Assembly: GCF_934924865.1 (NCBI RefSeq)
Contig: NZ_OW235315.1
Span: 1,178,001 to 1,242,000, forward strand
Direction: 5' to 3'
Length of the DNA: 64,000 nt
Source: Tepidibacter aestuarii
Lineage (GTDB): Bacteria > Bacillota > Clostridia > Peptostreptococcales > Peptostreptococcaceae
The translations under genes were made by a program, and so were the position numbers. Of this stretch, positions 30,839 to 61,458 are shown one piece after another (position 1 is the first letter of the stretch; each line of letters begins with the position of its first letter). The notes beneath the pieces were generated by a model, which saw only the letters and a list, made by a program, of their open reading frames with translations, had not been told where the DNA came from and made no database searches.

Positions 30839-30884
30839 TCTTTTAAACAATTAATCAGAAAATAAAAAAAAATATAAACAATAT

Positions 30885-31016
30885 GATATAGAGGCCGCGG
30901 TTGCAATTAGTACTGCATATGATAGATATATACAGGAAAGGTCCAACCGCCGAAATACATAGATGAATAAATCCTATGTATTGGGACTATGTTGAATAAA
31001 CATAGTACTGTCTTTA
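30885..31016 (+). promoter_or_regulatory. Lysine riboswitch, first aptamer
   Basis: This shows the L-box core in order: GATATAGAGGCCGCGGTTG, AGTACTGCATATG, GGAAAGGTCCAACCGCCGAA, a stem ATACATAG/CTATGTAT, TTGGGACTATG, TTGAATAAACATAGTA and CTGTC. These match the conserved elements of the Bacillus lysC leader, including the GCCGAA and GAATAAA-type blocks. Lysine binding should favour the terminator at 31107. Downstream (31012-31039) lies a hairpin CTTTAGAAAAT/ATTTTCTAAAG. Confidence 0.93.
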
Positions 31017-31106
31017 GAAAATAGCCCAATTTTCTAAAGGAGGACTTATCATGTTGGGGCAAAAGGAATAGATGTTTTTGTATAAAACAGTATTTTAGTT
31101 TTGTAT

Positions 31107-31146: not shown

Positions 31147-31193
31147 ATATACAAGGAATTATTACATTTAAAAATAAAAAATATAAACAATAT

Positions 31194-31325
31194 GATATAG
31201 AGGCCGCGGTTGTAAAGAGTACAGCATATAAATGTTATAGATTGGAAAGGTCCAACCGCCGAAATACATAGAATTTATGTATTGGGACTATGTTGAATAA
31301 GCATAGTACTGTCTTTAGAAAATAG
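31194..31325 (+). promoter_or_regulatory. Lysine riboswitch, second (tandem) aptamer
   Basis: This repeats the first aptamer about 309 bases downstream with high identity: GATATAGAGGCCGCGGTTG, AGTACAGCATATA, GGAAAGGTCCAACCGCCGAA, TTGGGACTATGTTGAATAA and TAGTACTGTC. Differences sit mostly in loops and in paired stems (for example AAACATAG to AAGCATAG), so the fold is preserved. Lysine must be absent from both aptamers for full read-through. Confidence 0.93.
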
Positions 31326-31406
31326 CCCAATTTTCTAAAGGAGGACTTATCATATTGGGGCAAAAGGAATTATTGTTTTTATATAAAATATACTTTGATT
31401 TTGTAT

Positions 31407-32823: not shown

Positions 32824-34029
32824 ATGGCTACAATAGTTCAGAAATACGGTGGAACTTCTGTAGGAAGTATAGATAGAATGAAAGATATTGCAAAAAGAGT
32901 GATAGATCAAAGAGAAAAAGGAAATGATGTAGTAGTTGTAGTTTCTGCTATGGGCAAAAGTACTGATAGACTTGTTGAAATGGCTAAAGAAATTTCACAA
33001 AATCCATGCAAGAGAGAGTTAGATATGCTTATGTCTACAGGAGAACAAGTGTCTATTTCATTACTATCAATGATATTTAAGGAACAAGGATACAATTCAA
33101 TATCACTAACTGGTTTTCAAGCAGGAATAAAAACAGAAGGACTGCATACTAAAAATCGTGTTGCAGAAATTAATATTGATATTATAAAAAAACATTTAAA
33201 AGAGGGAAAAATAGTTGTTGTAGCGGGTTTTCAAGGTATAAACGAAAATGGTGATATAACTACTTTAGGAAGAGGCGGATCAGATACTACAGCGGTTGCT
33301 TTAGCTGCTAAACTTAATTGTACTTGCGAAATATATACTGATGTAGAGGGAATTTATGCTGTTGACCCTAGATCTTATTCGAATGCTAAAAAATTAGACT
33401 ATATAAGTTATGAGGAGATGATGGAATTGTCAAGCTTAGGAGCTGGAGTAATGGAGACAAGAGCAGTTGAAATTGGATTTAAGTATAATATACCTATTTA
33501 TGTAGCACTGAATAAAGGAAATAAAAGAGGAACTTATATAAAGGAGTATGATGAAAATATGGAGCAAAAAGTAATAACAGGTCTTACGACTACTGATGAT
33601 GTTTTGATGATTACTATTAATAATGTTTTATATAATTGTAAAAATATAGCAACTATATTTGACAAATTATCACAAAGTAATGTTAATGTAGATATGATAA
33701 GTCAAACAGCACCTAATGATGGATATGTAAATGTTTCTTTTACAACATCTAAAGATGATATATATATTATTCATGATGTAATAAATGAATTGAAAAAAGA
33801 AATGAAAGATATAGAAATATCTGAGGAGGCTAGTATAACTAAGATATCTGTTGTTGGAATAGGCATGATGAATCAATCAGGAGTTGCAGCTAAGATGTTT
33901 AAAATATTTGCAGATAATGATATTGAATTTAAGCAAGTTACAACTTCTGAGATAAGCATATCTTATACTATAAATTCAAGTGACAAGGGAAAAGCAATAA
34001 CTGTAATAGCAAAAGAATTTGATTTATAA
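32824..34029 (+). CDS. lysC: Aspartate kinase
   Basis: This 401-residue enzyme catalyses the first committed step of the aspartate family (aspartate to aspartyl-phosphate). The kinase domain shows KYGGTSVGS (7-15), MSTGEQVSISLLS and FQGINENGDITTLGRGGSDT. Two C-terminal ACT domains (about 265-401) would allow allosteric feedback, with lysine or threonine as usual effectors. The start follows AAAGGGGGC. It is 21 bases downstream of lysA. Confidence 0.97.
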   Translation: MATIVQKYGGTSVGSIDRMKDIAKRVIDQREKGNDVVVVVSAMGKSTDRLVEMAKEISQNPCKRELDMLMSTGEQVSISLLSMIFKEQGYNSISLTGFQAGIKTEGLHTKNRVAEINIDIIKKHLKEGKIVVVAGFQGINENGDITTLGRGGSDTTAVALAAKLNCTCEIYTDVEGIYAVDPRSYSNAKKLDYISYEEMMELSSLGAGVMETRAVEIGFKYNIPIYVALNKGNKRGTYIKEYDENMEQKVITGLTTTDDVLMITINNVLYNCKNIATIFDKLSQSNVNVDMISQTAPNDGYVNVSFTTSKDDIYIIHDVINELKKEMKDIEISEEASITKISVVGIGMMNQSGVAAKMFKIFADNDIEFKQVTTSEISISYTINSSDKGKAITVIAKEFDL

Positions 34030-37693: not shown

Positions 37694-37722
37694 TTGTGCA
37701 AAATTTATTAAGGTGTTATAAT
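37694..37722 (+). promoter_or_regulatory. Sigma-A promoter of the histidine operon
   Basis: TTGTGC (37694-37699), a 17-base spacer and a consensus TATAAT (37717-37722). The transcript would start near 37729 and carry a leader of about 300 bases. Confidence 0.8.
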
Positions 37723-37789
37723 ATGAATAACAATTTAACGGTTTAGCGTGATAAAGTGATAAAGCGAAATTATGAAAGGGGTACTTAAC

Positions 37790-37858
37790 ATGAAGAATTT
37801 AGTTTTAGTAAAATCAAATTTAAATTTAAGACATCATCATAGATTTGAGGATTTGTAA
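37790..37858 (+). CDS. Histidine operon leader peptide
   Basis: This 22-codon ORF starts MKNLVLVKSNLNLR and continues HHHRFEDL. The ATG follows GAAAGGGG with good spacing. Three consecutive His codons (37832-37840) sit shortly before the stop, where a ribosome short of charged His-tRNA would stall. It lies between the his promoter and a terminator upstream of hisZ, the layout of a leader-peptide attenuator. The peptide itself presumably has no function. Confidence 0.85.
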   Translation: MKNLVLVKSNLNLRHHHRFEDL

Positions 37859-37994
37859 TAATGAGCTAAAAATAGTTCATAGATACAAGTCCTAGTTATG
37901 TTACAAAAAATATAGGATTTATATCTATGATGGTTTAATATAATTCTTCACAATATTAAAAAGCCATGTAGGTATATACCTATATGGCTTTTTA
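37848..37994 (+). promoter_or_regulatory. Histidine attenuator: competing stems and terminator
   Basis: Segment 1 (37848-37856, AGGATTTGT, overlapping the end of the leader ORF) can pair with segment 2 (37884-37892, ACAAGTCCT). Segment 2 with its flank (37878-37893) can instead pair with 37913-37929 (TAGGAT...TATCTATG). The terminator is AAAAAGCCATGTAGGT/ACCTATATGGCTTTTT (37958-37993, one wobble). An ATGG-TTT-AATAT segment (37930-37941) can pair with the terminator's left flank as an antiterminator. How the switches are linked is inference. Confidence 0.75.
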
Positions 37995-38028
37995 ATATTC
38001 AATAAATTATAAAAAGGTAGGGATTATA

Positions 38029-39003
38029 ATGGAATTTTTAAAAATTAAAGATGAAATAGATTATTCAAATAATAGATATAAAATAACAAGAGAAATAGAA
38101 GATATGTTTATAAATTATGGATGTATTAACATAGAACCTTCAGTTTTTGAAGACTATGATTCTTTTATTTCCGTTAACAAAAGAATAAAAAAAGAATCCA
38201 TGGTAAAGGTTTTAAATGGGAATTCAAATATTTCGATTCTAAGACCCGATATTACAATGAATATAATAAAAAATTTAATTCCAAGATGGGAAAATGATTT
38301 AAAACTTAAGTTGTTTTACAATTCCACAATTTTCAGAAATAAGACTGATTCAAATATTAAAGAATTTAGACAAATGGGTATCGAATATATAGGAGAATCC
38401 TCTATAAAAGCAGATAGAGATGTAATTGGGTTAGCTTTAAATATCTTAAAAAAATATAACAATAGTTTTATTTTAGAAATTGGAAATAGCAAGTATATTG
38501 ATGAATTATTGAAAATGATTGATTTAGAAGAAAGTACTGAAAAAGAACTAAAGAGTTTAATTTATAAAAAAAATAAGATTGAACTAATAGATTATGTGAA
38601 AAATTTAAATATAAAAAAAGAAATATGCGATTTATTATCTAATATTTTGGATTTTCAGGGAAGTATAGAAGAAATTGCAGAAAAAGCTGAGAAATTTTAT
38701 ATGAATGATGAAATGAAAAAATCTATAGACGAGCTTAAGGATTTGAAGGAGTTTATTAAAGAGTATGGATATTTAAAATATATACATTTTGATTTATCTA
38801 TGGTAGCAGAGTTAGATTATTATGAAGGTATAGTATTTAAAGGTTATTACCCAAATTCATATAGAGAAATTATAAGTGGAGGAAGATATGATTCTTTAAC
38901 AGAAGCATTTGGAGAAAACGTTCCAGCAATAGGGTTTTCAATAGATATAGATGAATTAATTAAAGTTTTCAATAAGAAAGGTGATGGAGAGTGGATTATA
39001 TAA
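38029..39003 (+). CDS. hisZ: ATP phosphoribosyltransferase regulatory subunit HisZ
   Basis: This 324-residue histidyl-tRNA-synthetase-like subunit lacks aminoacylation activity and activates short-form HisG. HisRS-like motif 2 (LKLFYNSTIFRNKTDS and FRQMGIEYIG) and motif 3 (SGGRYDSLTEAFGENVPAIG) are visible. At 324 residues it lacks the anticodon-binding domain of HisRS, which separates it from a true synthetase. The start follows AAAAGGTAGGG. It overlaps hisG by 13 bases. Confidence 0.96.
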   Translation: MEFLKIKDEIDYSNNRYKITREIEDMFINYGCINIEPSVFEDYDSFISVNKRIKKESMVKVLNGNSNISILRPDITMNIIKNLIPRWENDLKLKLFYNSTIFRNKTDSNIKEFRQMGIEYIGESSIKADRDVIGLALNILKKYNNSFILEIGNSKYIDELLKMIDLEESTEKELKSLIYKKNKIELIDYVKNLNIKKEICDLLSNILDFQGSIEEIAEKAEKFYMNDEMKKSIDELKDLKEFIKEYGYLKYIHFDLSMVAELDYYEGIVFKGYYPNSYREIISGGRYDSLTEAFGENVPAIGFSIDIDELIKVFNKKGDGEWII

Positions 39004-39620
39004 CTATAGCTCTTTCGAAAGGAAGAATAGGAAAACAAGCTAATGATGTATTTAAAAAAATAGGATTAGGAGATTGTATAGATTTAGATTCTAGAAAGCT
39101 TATATTTAAAGATGAGAAAAATAAGATTAATTTTATATATGTTAAACCATCTGATGTGGTTACATATGTAGAAAAGGGGGTCACGGATTTAGGTATAGTA
39201 GGTAAGGATACAATTTTAGAAAGTGACACTAATGTATATGAGGTTTTTGATTTAGGATTTGGGAAATGTAAATTTTCAATAGCAGGTATAAAAGGTGAAA
39301 CAGTATATAAGAACGAGGAAGTTTTAAAAGTTGCAACAAAATATCCTGGAATAGCTAAAAAATATTTTAAAGAAAGACAGCAAAGAATCGAGATAATAAA
39401 GCTTAATGGTTCTGTAGAATTAGCACCTTTAGTAGGACTTTCTGATGTGATTGTTGATTTGGTGGAAACAGGAAATACTTTAAAAGCTAATGGACTGGAG
39501 GTAATAGAAGATATGTTTGATATAAGTGCGAGATTAATATCTAATAGAGTAAGTTATAGATTTAAATTTGAGAGAATTCAAAATATTATTAAATCATTAA
39601 ATGAAAATATGGAGGGATAA
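38991..39620 (+). CDS. hisG: ATP phosphoribosyltransferase, short form
   Basis: This 209-residue catalytic subunit joins ATP and PRPP in the first step of histidine synthesis. It starts at GTG within hisZ and reads MDYITIALSKGRIGKQ. The PRPP region is DVIVDLVETGNTLKANGLEV, and DLGIVGKDTI is typical. The regulatory C-terminal domain of long-form HisG is missing, consistent with dependence on HisZ. It is followed within three bases by hisD. Confidence 0.96.
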   Translation: MDYITIALSKGRIGKQANDVFKKIGLGDCIDLDSRKLIFKDEKNKINFIYVKPSDVVTYVEKGVTDLGIVGKDTILESDTNVYEVFDLGFGKCKFSIAGIKGETVYKNEEVLKVATKYPGIAKKYFKERQQRIEIIKLNGSVELAPLVGLSDVIVDLVETGNTLKANGLEVIEDMFDISARLISNRVSYRFKFERIQNIIKSLNENMEG

Positions 39621-39622
39621 TT

Positions 39623-40903
39623 ATGATAAGAATAATAGATTCAATAAAAGATAGCGGTTTTTTAAAAAAACTTTTAGATAGAAGTCAATTTGAATTTGAA
39701 GAAGTAAACAAAGTAGTGGATGAAATTTTATTTAATGTAAGAAAAAGAAAAGATGAAGCTTTAAAAGAATATACATTAAAGTTTGACAAAGTGAAAATAA
39801 ATGATTTTCTAGTATCTCAAGAAGAAATAGATAATGCATTTAAAAATATAGCAGGTGATTTAAAAAATGATCTTTTAAAGGCCAAGGAAAATATTGAAAA
39901 ATACCACACTAAGCAGTTAAAAACATCTTATACATTACATGATGGAGAAGACATAATTTTAGGGCAAATTATAAGACCTATAGAGACTGTTGGTATATAT
40001 GTTCCGGGTGGAAGTGCAGCATATCCATCTACTGTTTTAATGAATGCAGTACCTGCAAAAATAGCTGGAGTTAAGGAAATAGTTATGATAACTCCTCCGA
40101 ACAAAGAAGGTAAGGTAAAGGATTCTATTCTTGTAGCAGCATCTATAGCTGGAGTAGATAAGATATACAAGGTAGGAGGAGCACAGGGAATAGGGGCACT
40201 TACTTTTGGAACAGAAAGTGTACCTAAGGTATCTAAAATAGTTGGTCCTGGAAATATATATGTTGCCATGGCTAAAAAGAAAGTCTCAGGATATGTAGGA
40301 ATAGATATGATTGCAGGACCTAGTGAGATTTTGATAATCGCAGATGAATATGCAAATCCAAAATATATAGCTGCTGATTTAATATCTCAAGCAGAGCACG
40401 ATGAAATGGCAGCATCAATACTTGTTACAGATTCCATAAAAATAGCGAAAAAAGTAGAAGAAGAATTAAAAATACAAGTTGAAATGCTTGAAAGAAAAGA
40501 AATAATAAAGAAATCTCTTAAAAATTATGGAGCAATAATAATAACAAATTCTATTAATGAATCAATAAAAATAGCCAATGAAGTAGCACCAGAACATTTA
40601 GAAATACTTACAAGAAATCCTTTTGACTTATATAAACAAGTAAAAAATGCTGGCGCAATATTTCTTGGAGAATTCTCTCCAGAACCATTAGGAGATTATT
40701 TTGCAGGACCAAATCATACGTTGCCTACTAGTTCAACTTCTAAATTTGCTTCACCTTTAGGTGTTGAAGATTTCTTAAAGAAAACTTCATTGATATACTA
40801 CAGCAAAGAGGCTTTAATGAAATCAAAAGATTCTATTATAAGAATTGCGGAGGATGAGGGATTAACGGCACATGCCAATTCCATAAAAGTCAGATTTGAA
40901 TAG
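39623..40903 (+). CDS. hisD: Histidinol dehydrogenase
   Basis: This 426-residue zinc, NAD-linked enzyme oxidises histidinol to histidine, the last two steps. Family motifs are YVPGGSAAYPSTVLMNAVPA, GGAQGIGALTFGTESVP, IAGPSEILIIAD, ISQAEHDEMAAS (zinc and base residues) and AGPNHTLPTSS. Length is normal. The start follows TGGAGGG, immediately after hisG. Confidence 0.98.
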   Translation: MIRIIDSIKDSGFLKKLLDRSQFEFEEVNKVVDEILFNVRKRKDEALKEYTLKFDKVKINDFLVSQEEIDNAFKNIAGDLKNDLLKAKENIEKYHTKQLKTSYTLHDGEDIILGQIIRPIETVGIYVPGGSAAYPSTVLMNAVPAKIAGVKEIVMITPPNKEGKVKDSILVAASIAGVDKIYKVGGAQGIGALTFGTESVPKVSKIVGPGNIYVAMAKKKVSGYVGIDMIAGPSEILIIADEYANPKYIAADLISQAEHDEMAASILVTDSIKIAKKVEEELKIQVEMLERKEIIKKSLKNYGAIIITNSINESIKIANEVAPEHLEILTRNPFDLYKQVKNAGAIFLGEFSPEPLGDYFAGPNHTLPTSSTSKFASPLGVEDFLKKTSLIYYSKEALMKSKDSIIRIAEDEGLTAHANSIKVRFE

Positions 40904-40914
40904 GAGGTATTAAT

Positions 40915-41967
40915 ATGGAATTAGTAAAAGAAAGTATAAAAAATTTAAAGGGATATAAGACGAATAATATTGAGTTTAAAATAAAGCTTGATGCAAATGA
41001 AGGTAAAAATATTTTACTGCAAGACATATATAAAGAAGGAATCAAATTTAATGAAGAATTTAATTTGAATTTTTATCCAGATAATGATTCATATCTTCTA
41101 AAAAAAGAAATAAAGAAATATTTAAATGTTGATATTTCAAATATTATAGCAGGAAATGGTTCTAGTGAGATGATAGAACTTGTGATAAAGACTTTTGTAG
41201 ACAAGGGTGAGATTATTTTAAGTCATATTCCTACATTTAGTATGTACTCAGTATATAGTCAAATATATTCAGCAAAATTTATAGGAGTAAAAAGCAATGA
41301 AGATTTTGGAGTAGATATAGAAAAAATAATAAAAAAAGCAAAAGAAACAAATCCTAAAGTTATATTTATATGCAATCCAAATAATCCAACAGGAAACTTA
41401 ATAAATAAAAATGATATTAAAAAACTTTTGGAAAACACAAATGGATTAGTAGTTGTAGATGAAGCTTATATGGAATTTGCAGATGGTTCAATGGTTGATG
41501 AAATCTCAAATTATGAAAATTTAATAGTTCTAAGAACCTTATCAAAGGCATTAGGACTTGCAGGTATAAGGCTTGGATATATGATAGCTAATCAAAAAAT
41601 AATAAATGTTATAAATAAGGTGAAATCACCCTATAATTTAAACTCTATTTCTCAATATATAGGAGTAAAGGCTCTTGAAAATAAAGATAAAATTTTCGAG
41701 TATATTGAACAAGTAAAAAAAGAAAGAGAAATTTTATATAAAGAGTTAGATGAAATGAAAATAAAAGCTTATAAATCTTATGCAAACTTTATATTTTTTA
41801 AATCAGATATAAAGGATTTATATAAAAAGCTTATAGATTATGGAATACTAATAAGAAAATTTTCTGATGAACTTGAAGGCTACTATAGAGTTAGTATAGG
41901 AAATAAAAGTGAGAATAGAATGTTTATCAAAATATTAAAGGAGATAATGTCAAATGAGAAAATCTAA
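40915..41967 (+). CDS. hisC: Histidinol-phosphate aminotransferase
   Basis: This 350-residue fold-type I PLP transaminase acts on imidazole acetol-phosphate. [26 protein letters not shown] and the PLP-lysine segment [17 protein letters not shown] are intact. The operon position between hisD and hisB fixes the substrate. It starts at ATG after TAGGAGG and overlaps hisB by 14 bases. Confidence 0.97.
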
Positions 41968-42532
41968 AGTACAAAGAAAAACTCTTGAAACTGAGGTTTT
42001 AGTAGAAATAGATTTAGATGGAAGTGGAAAAATTGATATTGATACAGGTATAGGATTTTTAGATCATATGCTTACTTTAATGGCTTTTCACGGCAATTTT
42101 GATTTGAAAGTAAAGTGTAGTGGAGATATATATGTAGATGATCACCACACAGTAGAGGATATAGGAATAACATTAGGGGAAGCTTTTATTAAGGCTTTAG
42201 GCGATAAAAAAGGAATAAAAAGATACTCAAGCCTTTACATTCCAATGGATGAAAGCTTATGCCGTATAGCTTTAGATATAAGTAATAGACCTTATTTAGT
42301 ATTTGATGTTAATTTTGAAAGAGAAAAACTTGGAAATATGGATACTCAAAATTTCAAAGAATTTTTTAAGGCTTTTGTAAATGTAGCTAAATTAACGCTT
42401 CATATTAATGTTTTATACGGAGAAAATGATCATCATAAGATAGAAGCAGTATTTAAGGCATTTTCAAGAGCATTAAATGAAGGGGTGCAAATACTTTCTG
42501 ATAAAATATCGTCATCAAAGGGGGTTTTATAG
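41954..42532 (+). CDS. hisB: Imidazoleglycerol-phosphate dehydratase
   Basis: This 192-residue manganese enzyme has the paired metal motifs [16 protein letters not shown] and, later, [16 protein letters not shown]. The [19 protein letters not shown] block is diagnostic. It is monofunctional and lacks the HAD phosphatase domain of enterobacterial HisB. That agrees with the separate PHP-type phosphatase at the end of the operon. It starts inside hisC. Confidence 0.97.
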
Positions 42533-43135
42533 TTGAATATAATAATTGATTATGGACTTGGAAATTTAGACTCCGTATCTAGAGCATTTGAAATGGTAGG
42601 AGTAGAAACAAAAATTTCAAATAGTATAGATGAAATAAATAATGCCAACTCAATTATTTTGCCTGGAGTTGGAGCATTTAGAGATGCTATAAATTCACTT
42701 AAGGATATGGAATTAATACCGGTAATAAAAGAACATGTAGATAAAGGAAAGTTCTTAATAGGCATATGTCTAGGAATGCAGCTTCTTTATGAAAAAAGCT
42801 ACGAAAATGGAGAATATGAAGGGCTAGGTCTTATAAAAGGAAATGTTGAAAAATTAGATATAGATTTGAAAGTTCCTCATATGGGTTGGAATAATATAAA
42901 GTTTAATAAAAATGATGAAATATTGAAATATATAAATGAAGATGATTATGTGTATTTTGTACATTCTTATTATGTTAATTCTTCAAATGAAGAACTTGTA
43001 GCATATACAGACTATGGAACAACTATTCCTTCTATAGTTAGAAAAAATAATGTTTATGGTATTCAATTTCATCCAGAAAAAAGCTCTCAAGTGGGTGTAA
43101 ATATATTAAAAGCATATGGGGAGATGATAAAATGA
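42533..43135 (+). CDS. hisH: Imidazole glycerol phosphate synthase, glutamine amidotransferase subunit
   Basis: This 200-residue class I glutaminase feeds ammonia to HisF. The nucleophile lies in GICLGMQLLYE and the His-Glu pair in IQFHPEKSSQVG. It begins with TTG (MNIIIDYGLGNLDSV) after AAAGGGGG, adjacent to the hisB stop. It overlaps hisA by four bases (ATGA). Confidence 0.97.
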   Translation: MNIIIDYGLGNLDSVSRAFEMVGVETKISNSIDEINNANSIILPGVGAFRDAINSLKDMELIPVIKEHVDKGKFLIGICLGMQLLYEKSYENGEYEGLGLIKGNVEKLDIDLKVPHMGWNNIKFNKNDEILKYINEDDYVYFVHSYYVNSSNEELVAYTDYGTTIPSIVRKNNVYGIQFHPEKSSQVGVNILKAYGEMIK

Positions 43136-43851
43136 TAATTTTTCCGGCAATAGATATAAAGGATAATAAATGTGTAAGACTTTCTCAAGGAGATTTCGAT
43201 AAGATTAATATATATTCTGATGAGCCATTTGATATGGCAGTTAAGTGGAAAAATGAAGGAGCTTCATTTTTACATTTGGTTGACTTAGATGGTGCTAGAA
43301 GTGAAAAAATTATTAATAAAAAATCTATAGAAAAAATAGCCCAAAATATAGGAATACCAGTACAATTAGGTGGAGGAATAAGAAGTGAAGAAAAGGTTAA
43401 AAACTTAATTGATATGGGAGTAGAAAGGGTAATAGTTGGAACTATTGCAGTTGAAAATAAAGAACTTTTGAAAAAATTGGTTTCTAAGTATAAAGAAAAA
43501 ATAGTAGTTTCCATAGATGCTAAAAATGGTAAAGTAGCTCTTAGAGGATGGGAAGTAGTAAGTGAGGTTGATTCAATAGATTTATGTAAAGAACTTGAAG
43601 AAATAGGTGTCAGAACAATAGTATATACGGACATATCTAAAGATGGAATGCTTGAAGGTCCTAATTTTGAAATATATAAATTATTATCTCAACAAACATC
43701 TTTAAACATAATAGCTTCTGGGGGTATAAGTTCAATTGATGATATAAGAAAGCTTAAAAATATGAATATATATGGAGCCATAACAGGAAAAGCTCTTTAT
43801 GATAATAAAATAGAACTTAAGGAGGCCTTAAAATGCTTACAAGAAGAATAA
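43132..43851 (+). CDS. hisA: Phosphoribosylformimino-AICAR-phosphate isomerase
   Basis: This 239-residue TIM-barrel isomerase opens the ProFAR ribose ring. [20 protein letters not shown] holds the first catalytic Asp. [18 protein letters not shown] and [13 protein letters not shown] (second catalytic Asp) are present. It overlaps hisF by 19 bases, within which the hisF AAGGAGG site lies. Confidence 0.97.
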
Positions 43852-44591
43852 TACCTTGCTTAGATGTTAGGAGTGGAAGAGTAGTTAAAGGTAAAAAATT
43901 TGAAAATATAGTAGATGTAGATAGTCCAGAGATTCTAGGTAAATATTATAGCGATTGTGGAGCTGATGAACTTGTATTTTATGATATAACAGCATCAAAT
44001 GAAGAAAGAAAAACATCTCTAGAATTTGTATCAAAGGTTGCTAAGAATATAAATATTCCATTTTGTGTAGGTGGAGGAGTATCATCAATTGATGATTTCA
44101 CAGATATATTAAGAAGAGGAGCAGATAAAGTATCTATTAATTCTTCTGCTGTTAAAAATCCATATTTAATTAAAGAGGCTTCTTTGAAATTTGGTGCGCA
44201 ATGTGTTGTTTTATCTATGGATGTTAAGAAAAATTATGAAGGTTCTTGGGATGTATACGTAAAAGGTGGAAGAGAAAAAACAGATTTAGATGCAGTAAAG
44301 TGGGCTATAAAAGGAGTCGAACTTGGAGCAGGAGAAATAGTTGTAAATAGTATAGATGAAGATGGAATGAAAAATGGATATGATATTGAGCTTTTAAAAA
44401 GAATTACTAGTGTAGTAAATGTACCTGTAATTGCATCAGGAGGAGCTGGTAATATGAAGGACTTTTATGATGCTGTAAAATACGCAAATGTTGATGGAAT
44501 ACTAGCAGCTTCTGTATTTCATTTTGGAGAAATTAAAATAAAAGATCTTAAAAAATACTTAAAAGATAAAGGGATAGAAATTAGAATTTAG
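43833..44591 (+). CDS. hisF: Imidazole glycerol phosphate synthase, cyclase subunit
   Basis: This 252-residue TIM barrel forms the imidazole ring with ammonia from His[21 protein letters not shown] is the family start with the first catalytic Asp. [22 protein letters not shown] and [13 protein letters not shown] (second Asp) follow. It is translated from within hisA. Confidence 0.98.
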
Positions 44592-44601
44592 GAGTGAGAT
44601 T

Positions 44602-45225
44602 ATGAATGTTGATAATGTAGCAAAGGAAATAAAATTTGATGATAAAGGATTAGTACCTGTAATAGTACAAGATGTAAATACTAATAAGGTTTTGATGCTT
44701 GCATATATGAATGAAGAATCTATTAGAAAAACGTTAGATGAAAAAGTAGCTTGCTATTATAGTAGAAGCAGACAAAAACTTTGGAAAAAAGGAGAAACAT
44801 CAGGAAATATACAGAAATTAAAGGGATTTTATTATGATTGTGATAAGGATACTATTCTTATTCTTGTAGAACAAATAGGAGTAGCGTGTCATACTGGTAG
44901 TTATACATGCTTTTTCAATGAAGTAATAAAAAATGAAAAAAGTAAAGATGAGGTTTTAAAGGATTTATATTCACTTATAAAAGAAAGAAAAAATAATCCT
45001 AAGGAAGGTTCTTATACTAATTATTTATTTGAAAAAGGATTAGATAAGATATTAAAAAAGGTTGGAGAAGAGACTAGTGAAGTTATAATAGGGGCTAAGA
45101 ATAAAAATAAAGAAGAATTAGTTTATGAAATAAGTGATTTGATATACCACCTTTTAGTACTTATGGTAAATGAAAAAGTTACTATTGAGGATATAAAAAA
45201 TGAACTAAAAAAGAGGAGTAAATAA
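44602..45225 (+). CDS. hisI: Bifunctional phosphoribosyl-AMP cyclohydrolase / phosphoribosyl-ATP pyrophosphatase
   Basis: This 207-residue fusion carries out steps two and three. The HisI half (1 to about 110) has [18 protein letters not shown] and the zinc ligands in [20 protein letters not shown]. The HisE half (about 115-207) has a MazG-like helical fold with [15 protein letters not shown]. It ends one base into the next gene. Confidence 0.97.
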
Positions 45226-61239: not shown

Positions 61240-61271
61240 AAAGACAAATATTAAATATGATTATCCAAATG

Positions 61272-61458
61272 AGGGTAGCGTGAGATATCTTTAAAAGATA
61301 GCCGAAGAAGCAATATGAAAAAAAGCCAAATTTTCATAGAAACTTTCAGGCAAAAGTATCGTTATCTGATGGGTCTCTGGAAAGTTGGATTGTTTCCACG
61401 CCGAAGGGGAAATACACCATAGTGTGTAAAATCTCTCAGGTAAAAAAGGACAGAGGGG
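61272..61458 (+). promoter_or_regulatory. Tandem glycine riboswitch
   Basis: Two adjacent gcvT-type aptamers are visible. The first (about 61282-61369) has GATAGCCGAAGAAGCAA and AAACTTTCAGGCAAAAGTAT. The second (about 61371-61457) has TCTCTGGAAAGTTGG, CACGCCGAAGGGGAAA and ATCTCTCAGGTAAAAAAGGA ending CAGAGGGG. They are joined by a one- to two-base linker. The 3' end of the second aptamer is also the base of the terminator stem, which implies an ON switch: glycine binding prevents termination. Confidence 0.95.

Follow-up and report, generated by a model that had tools for sequence, protein, structure and literature searches.

Our analysis indicates that the histidine (his) operon of a Tepidibacter sp. 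is likely controlled by a leader-peptide transcription attenuator placed in series with a candidate HisR-type operator, and that this attenuator belongs to a wider family of leaders with various sensor codons (His, Trp, Tyr/Phe or Leu), which includes RF04312 (the trpB motif). The operon lies in a 64-kb stretch of DNA (64,000 nucleotides, hereafter the window). Among named organisms, its HisZ is closest to Tepidibacter proteins (87-88% identity), and the window was assigned to a Tepidibacter sp., a genus of the Peptostreptococcaceae. The gene names hisZ to hisIE are putative and were given from the sequences themselves; hisZ and hisG were the queries for locus searches in relatives. The features discussed below are as follows (window coordinates).

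37694..37722, + strand: promoter read from the sequence, with a weak -35 TTGTGC (37694-37699) and an extended -10 TGTTATAAT (37714-37722)
37739..37758, + strand: candidate HisR operator cggTTTAgcgtgaTAAAgtg, agreeing with 12 of 14 positions of the published consensus cacTTTAnnnnnnTAAAgtg
37775..37781, + strand: Shine-Dalgarno sequence AAAGGGG of the leader ORF, from the sequence
37790..37858, + strand: leader ORF of 22 codons, MKNLVLVKSNLNLRHHHRFEDL, stop at 37856-37858; His run conserved in 16 of 16 close loci
37832-37840, + strand: three His codons within the leader ORF
37832..37844, + strand: segment A, the His codons plus AGAU; 37833-37844, within the His and Arg codons, pairs with C at 37923-37934 (12 bp)
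37848..37857, + strand: segment A', the last codons, reaching into the stop; pairs with B at 37884-37893 (swap test and pair counts)
37861-37868 / 37873-37880, + strand: inner hairpin inside A':B, weakly conserved (75% of cells, first four pairs)
37878..37893, + strand: segment B, pairing with A' or with C at 37914-37929
37914..37936, + strand: segment C, pairing with A, B or D
37961..37975, + strand: segment D, the 5' arm of the terminator and a partner of C
37921-37936 / 37961-37975, + strand: C:D antiterminator, 15 pairs, G37929 bulged
37952-37973 / 37978-37999, + strand: intrinsic terminator D:E, 22-bp stem, with both-sided changes in two D:E pairs
38029..45225, + strand: his operon (ORFs) in the order hisZ, hisG, hisD, hisC, hisB, hisH, hisA, hisF, hisIE
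38029-39003, + strand: hisZ, first gene of the operon
end at 45225, + strand: hisIE, last gene of the operon

The his leader and its alternative pairings

A previous sequence-only reading had proposed His-codon attenuation from a 22-codon ORF with a ribosome binding site and three consecutive His codons, two alternative pairings and a terminator ahead of hisZ, and our results support it: the ORF follows AAAGGGG as described, its in-frame His run is conserved, the switch anatomy is complete down to a 22-bp terminator stem, and neither a T-box nor the proteobacterial His leader was found. Searches with HisZ returned 15 loci with a close HisZ (L013-L027, the window's own included) together with that of Vulcanibacillus modesticaldus (L011). 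All 16 carry a leader ORF with 3-5 consecutive His codons upstream of hisZ, a count from which L009 and L010 (second copies of L015 and L016) and L012 (a 29% match) were left out; the run starts 172-375 nt upstream of hisZ. No such His leader was seen at 13 more distant HisZ loci, among which L038 has one weak HNHH ORF. In the family as a whole, hisG is present in 23 of 71 genomes, and the leader stands in front in 19 of the 23.

Two of the close loci differ in ways worth recording. In Tepidibacter mesophilus (L016), a 1-base insertion after the His run shifts the frame. The peptide then has RFVGFVIMS as its end, and its stop codon is displaced by 12 nt, where a ribosome would cover A' only in part. 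The V. modesticaldus locus has a HisZ that is 58% identical and a complete his leader of the window type. Since we take this genus to lie outside the Clostridia, the combination suggests transfer of operon and leader together.

Control by a T-box responding to uncharged tRNA-His was also considered. The genome has 27 T-box matches elsewhere, and T-boxes are reported upstream of hisXYZ transporters in Peptostreptococcaceae by Ashniev et al. 2022 (PMC9413887). However, a covariance search for RF00230 in the leader gave no match at the gathering score or at any E value up to 10, in agreement with the earlier statement that no T-box is visible there, and we regard the probability of T-box control as practically negligible. 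The proteobacterial His leader (RF00514) likewise gave no match in the leader up to E 10, and both models were rejected for the his leader on these empty searches.

The leader folds with a z score of -7.5, and none of 200 shuffles was equally stable. Its RNA can be described by six strands, of which A, B and D form one class and A', C and E the class complementary to it, and A:C, A':B, B:C, C:D and D:E are complementary across relatives. Both alternative pairings given by the sequence-only reading are real, although the first was one base off (it joins 37848-37857 with 37884-37893), and the second, 37878-37893 with 37914-37929, contains one C.A mismatch. That reading did not include the duplex between the His codons and 37923-37934 or the antiterminator formed by 37921-37936 with the 5' arm of the terminator. 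The two pairings first proposed are insufficient as a switch by themselves because neither touches the terminator; C:D does.

Among 15 aligned his leaders, B:C and D:E are formed in 93.5% of cells and show both-sided changes in 3 pairs and 12 cells; none of 500 shuffles reached this number of changed cells, and 199 of 500 reached the number of changed pairs. The pairings A':B and C:D, together with the inner hairpin, are formed in 90.8% of cells with little variation. For A':B plus C:D, 10 of 500 shuffles reached the observed score, and 223 of 500 had as many pairs with changes in both partners. Because C hardly varies, the his leaders among themselves show weak covariation.

The his leader is a new example of a kind of attenuator already described in 2010 and 2022. 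Attenuators of his operons in Peptostreptococcaceae have been reported by Ashniev et al. 2022 (PMC9413887), and their description agrees with the window leader in family, operon, 3-5 His codons and the proposed attenuator, terminator and antiterminator. Tepidibacter is in this family and the leader is common to family genomes. Similarly, Naville and Gautheret 2010 (PMC2965389) describe His leader peptides in bacilli, upstream of hisZ and hisS*, which by their description also combine a run of His codons, a terminator and hisZ/hisS paralogs. The new elements are the candidate HisR site in series with the attenuator and a family in which the sensor codons can be exchanged, RF04312 and RF02863 included.

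A candidate HisR layer at the promoter

The promoter had been called a consensus promoter. This description is valid for the -10 only, as the -35 TTGTGC is identical to TTGACA at 3 of 6 positions and the promoter was absent from the output of a consensus promoter scan. The -10 (TATAAT, 37717-37722) carries an extended TG (37714-37715), has a spacing of 17 nt from TTGTGC and is conserved in 3 of 4 Tepidibacter loci, being altered in L015.

Just beyond this promoter, about 10 nt downstream of the likely transcription start as placed from it, lies a candidate HisR operator that the earlier reading had overlooked, which leaves that reading incomplete, as does the wider set of related leaders described below. 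The consensus cacTTTAnnnnnnTAAAgtg is taken from Ashniev et al. 2022 (PMC9413887). The operator's 17-base core, TTTAN6TAAAGTG, has its sole match in the 64-kb window here (0.23 expected); since at least one match arose in 21 of 100 shuffles, it is the position at the promoter that supports the site. Each of the other three Tepidibacter loci has a HisR-like site at the equivalent position; in two of them the core is perfect and the spacer altered, and the third has one mismatch. As a check on the motif, a TTTAN6TAAA core was found 89-130 nt upstream of the HisZ match in 12 of 13 loci with the other HisZ type; the core with its GTG flank was found at none of 12 other leader-bearing loci.

The window's genome encodes HisR/YerC (TIGR02531, 147.1 bits, over the cut-off). 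The model found it in 10 of 71 family genomes, among them all four Tepidibacter, and in none of the 15 other family genomes with a his leader. Both marks of a HisR regulon, the HisR/YerC gene and a cacTTTAnnnnnnTAAAgtg-like site at the promoter, are therefore present. With a candidate operator after the promoter and HisR encoded in the genome, the operon looks doubly controlled: the Tepidibacter his operon probably has a repressor and an attenuator in series, with HisR predicted to bind the operator and, together with histidine, to add repression at the promoter level. These same two observations could be read as repression by HisR alone, the terminator being a constitutive or processing hairpin. 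Such a reading leaves unexplained why the leader is kept in 15 family genomes that have a his operon and in which no HisR was found, and why the alternative pairings are conserved; we judge it very improbable. Repression and attenuation in series would still set Tepidibacter apart from the his operons of Ashniev et al. 2022 (PMC9413887), which are placed in lineages without HisR. There, most Eubacteriales genomes lacking HisR are stated to be Peptostreptococcaceae, under T-boxes and attenuators. In Tepidibacter, HisR and a matching site coexist with the attenuator, so that a his operon of the Clostridia has a candidate repressor site and an attenuator in series, two devices earlier described as alternatives. 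The trp operon of E. coli has a TrpR-family repressor in series with an attenuator. By analogy, and as part of the likely family reading set out below, the Tepidibacter attenuator would be stacked on a TrpR-family repressor, giving a comparable two-layer logic for histidine.

A probable wider family with exchangeable sensor codons

A covariance model built from the 15 his leaders (R1) gave matches in 81 of 393 genomes of the order, often away from his genes, and 75 further stretches were retrieved for reading these loci. Leader ORFs were picked from their Shine-Dalgarno sequence and location, without regard to the codons. A sensor label could be assigned to 97 of 99 R1 loci, and it varies with the downstream gene. 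His leaders precede hisZ/hisS-type genes, a family-3 amino-acid binding protein of an ABC transporter and one NhaC; Tyr/Phe leaders, sometimes with added Trp, precede SNF symporters, BrnQ-type carriers, BPD_transp_2 permeases (ABC) and one NhaC; Trp leaders precede trpB and ABC transporters; and Leu leaders, obtained from the class search with RF04312, precede SNF symporters (L163, L175). The attenuators described by Ashniev et al. 2022 (PMC9413887) belong to his operons, whereas the scaffold described here also stands upstream of other genes with other codons. The window's own genome has a second member, a Phe leader (L118, G000:C1:407551-407748) followed by an ABC permease, an ATPase and a binding protein. 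The NhaC-like genes (L083, L127) have no obvious amino-acid role.

In Narunsky et al. 2024 (PMC11109978) the trpB motif appears as SRC-39-1, a strong riboswitch candidate that has two covarying hairpins and over 900 representatives, and a classic attenuator is left possible there. Its parts correspond to those of the his leader, P1 to B:C, the terminator to D:E, and the antiterminator, described as 'in the right shoulder of P1', to C. RF04312 finds his leaders, and the model of the his leaders finds RF04312 loci. Against the window leader from B to E, RF04312 scores 44.3 bits (E 4e-05 in 401 bases), below the gathering score of 59, so the window leader is not a formal member; relatives score up to 57 bits. 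In the order of genome G1001, RF04312 was found in 160 of 295 genomes, 52 above the cut-off. The RF04312 model begins at B and contains no leader ORF, and the codons upstream of it are thus an independent test. We read the 30 best-scoring of the above-cut-off loci that were retrieved; these loci are related to one another. Trp occurred in the tail of the chosen leader ORF at all 30, often as W-x-x-W-R-R. At least two Trp fell in the last 8 codons of an ORF at 24 of the 30, compared with 0.13 expected from shuffled upstream DNA, and at least one at 29; the reverse strand of the same loci gave two or more Trp at none. Downstream were an ABC substrate-binding protein (24 loci), a TrpB-like PALP enzyme (3) or unclassified ORFs (3). 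R1, for which his leaders were the sole training set, detects 25 of the 30 loci at E of 0.01 or less. The best RF04312 match overall (L186, 86.6 bits) has, 439 nt downstream, an ORF that seems to resemble a reverse transcriptase or intron maturase and not an amino-acid gene.

The class-wide search with RF04312 gave 26 rows, of which L151, on the reverse strand of the window genome's own Phe leader, was dropped. The remaining 25 same-strand matches include two that are that genome's own leaders, and on reading 21 of them have His, Tyr/Phe or Leu runs. In the other four (L164, L167, L173, L174) reading revealed no sensor run, and these resemble chance matches. Shuffle tests of the sensor codons at single loci reached 0.05 or less at only 9 of the 25, and the script overlooked two runs, one of His in L158 and one of Phe in L148. 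In the window's genome itself, nine RF04312 rows with E up to 0.1 comprise the his and Phe leaders, two rows overlapping the Phe leader and five weak rows, four of which were read and showed no sensor run.

Across the combined table, sensor type tracks the downstream gene. Of 148 rows, 136 had both a label and a gene class and could be used, and none of 2000 permutations gave as high an association, although this is not to be taken as a probability, since the rows are related and the origin of a row partly decided whether it was labelled Trp. Likewise, the leader ORF with a Shine-Dalgarno sequence in 142 of 146 cases is not an independent finding because Shine-Dalgarno strength was used in choosing the ORF. 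A single Trp in the tail sufficed for a row to be labelled W, and rows so labelled that did not come from the RF04312 set (L100, L101, L113, L123, L138) were counted as aromatic. Known errors of labelling are L136, called Leu though its peptide ends HLHF (which makes one of three 'Leu' members doubtful), and L105 and L128, left unlabelled.

Dropping the four rows without a run, the unlabelled rows and duplicate peptide tails reduced the table to 124 non-redundant members, whose strands were exchanged in a swap test. Duplexes between a member's own strands had energies of -13.9 (A:C), -15.1 (A':B) and -11.2 kcal/mol (C:D), compared with -8.9, -9.4 and -8.8 kcal/mol for swaps between sensor groups. 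None of 5000 permutations, which ignore phylogeny, matched the own duplexes, and the control pairings A:B and B:D showed no effect among the 124 members. The results for B:C and D:E are circular because these segments were picked by that same pairing. The Leu leaders showed no preference in C:D (own -8.7, others -8.5, n = 3).

A codon-free model of B to E only (R2), built from 72 members, was run on 270 genomes of the class and matched in 15; 12 of its 24 rows were new loci, some in genomes that also hold training members. In 11 of the 12, an ORF preceded by a Shine-Dalgarno sequence carries a run of His, Tyr, Phe or Leu codons; the remaining locus (38.7 bits) resembles a T-box upstream of TrpRS. 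In the alignment of the 72 members, the hairpin loop is variable and conservation lies in the strands that have two or three partners. These observations bear on the published view of the trpB motif as a metabolite-binding riboswitch, under which a ligand would control the genes and the short ORFs would be incidental. The two covarying hairpins and the standing of SRC-39-1 as a strong candidate speak for a riboswitch, but the Trp codons in the leader ORF tails, the change of codon type with the downstream gene while the hairpins stay, and the pattern of conservation just described all speak against it, and we consider it quite improbable. Judged from the codons, RF04312 instead suggests itself as the Trp branch of a leader-peptide attenuator family, and not as an unexplained riboswitch.

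RF02863 (Enterococcus sRNA 2410), which is catalogued as an sRNA, matches brnQ leaders, with five loci above the cut-off; the likeness is known here from non-Enterococcus loci. The start of its consensus reads S-Y-F-R-stop in one frame. BrnQ-type 'branched-chain' carriers (L100, L101, L123 and others) have leaders with Tyr, Phe and Trp codons, not Leu, Ile or Val, hinting at aromatic substrates for these carriers. The ABC transporters of Trp-led and Phe/Tyr-led loci are related. When the binding protein of the Trp-led L187 was compared with its counterparts at five Phe/Tyr-led loci, four shared 39-42% identity with it. Permease pieces were found at 21 of 30 Trp-led loci and share 34-48% identity with the permease of the window's genome.

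Taken together, we think it likely that a single modular attenuator family with His, Trp, Tyr, Phe or Leu sensor codons on a common RNA relay explains both RF04312 and RF02863, and that its codons predict substrates. The family would extend over biosynthesis, tRNA-synthetase and transporter genes in Clostridia and at least one other order of the phylum. If true, a testable codon-sensing switch takes the place of an orphan riboswitch candidate for which over 900 representatives are reported, three separately catalogued RNAs are joined, and leader codons reveal the substrates of uncharacterised amino-acid transporters, for example aromatics for BrnQ-family carriers led by Phe/Tyr. A literature search, with subscription journals mostly outside its reach, returned no paper linking RF04312 or RF02863 to leader peptides and no Tyr/Phe/Leu leaders of this kind in Clostridia.

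Ribosome position and the proposed wiring

The window leader was folded as far as D with and without a ribosome on the His codons, and its pairing changes with ribosome position, as expected of the attenuator proposed earlier. With no ribosome, A:C (0.92) and A':B (0.97) form; a ribosome stalled on either of the first two His codons gives A':B (0.98) and C:D (0.82); and with a ribosome at the stop, B:C forms (0.92). At the last (third) His the result is mixed, leaning to B:C (0.62 vs 0.36 for C:D). The 124 members were folded using only the RNA downstream of the ribosome, with contact expressed per up to 12 nt, so that values may exceed 1. Before C is made, mean A':B is 1.08 with the ribosome at the first sensor codon, 0.72 at the last and 0.20 at the stop. 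C:D exceeds B:C in 63, 25, 2 and 21 of the 124 (first sensor codon, last, stop and no ribosome, respectively) and in 23, 14, 0 and 2 of the 27 in the Trp branch. Relative to the stop, a ribosome at the first sensor codon lowers B:C in 84 members and raises it in 11, whereas it raises C:D in 75 and lowers it in 31. For the window leader folded in this way, C:D is 0.81 and B:C 1.30 at the stop, and 1.24 and 0.08 at the first His.

The sequence thus holds a short ORF with a ribosome binding site and codons for the regulated amino acid, and in the computed folds, for the window and in the family average, mutually exclusive structures that include the terminator are set by ribosome position. A link between ribosome position and pairing is supported by these models. 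From them we also infer a detailed wiring with A' as relay. When charged His-tRNA is short, the ribosome would stall on the His codons, hiding A and leaving A' free to hold B; C would then be free to pair with D, blocking the terminator, and the operon would be read. When histidine is ample, a ribosome at the stop would cover A', so that B:C could form, D would be left to pair with E and transcription would end. Without a ribosome, A:C and A':B would occupy C, and termination would again be expected. The start of A' lies 7-9 nt past the first base of the last sensor codon in 89 of 143 leaders and 4-10 nt past it in 111, a spacing at which a ribosome at the stop would cover A'.

Several results fit this wiring less well, among them the lean to B:C at the last His and the C:D contact that the window leader keeps at the stop. 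In 6 of 15 his leaders (L011, L014, L016, L022, L023, L024), B:C is dominant at equilibrium in all ribosome states, and the wiring there requires kinetic trapping of A':B. A crude, reduced co-transcriptional script, applied to the window leader alone, ended in B:C in each of five states and showed no switch. It let RNA upstream of the ribosome pair freely, for which reason we consider it unreliable, but it still counts against the wiring. It is also conceivable that the leader peptide is sensed through A:C alone, a stalled ribosome freeing C by covering A while the A':B / B:C relay only tunes the outcome. The swap test shows that A:C coevolves with sensor type (-13.9 vs -8.9 kcal/mol between groups), and A:C is well formed in the ribosome-free window leader (0.92). 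Yet A':B coevolves equally strongly (-15.1 vs -9.4), A' is close enough to the last sensor codon to be covered by a ribosome at the stop, and in the Trp branch A:C is barely formed at equilibrium (0.08). Sensing through A:C alone therefore seems unlikely to us, and we retain the A' relay as the working model.

The his and trp attenuators of Salmonella and E. coli also combine a leader peptide containing codons for the regulated amino acid, competing hairpins and a terminator. The leaders described here have a different sequence, and the logic of A' would differ as well, in that it is left free by the stalled ribosome and covered at the stop. Moreover, unlike in the enterobacterial his and trp attenuators, the codon run A is itself a pairing strand.

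The attenuator is accompanied in the window by other candidate regulatory RNAs. Two lysine riboswitch aptamers lie within a span of 500 nt at 30881-31054 (97.9 bits) and 31190-31355 (85.4 bits), about 1.5 kb upstream of an aspartokinase-like ORF at 32824, and tandem glycine riboswitch aptamers are found at 61269-61455.
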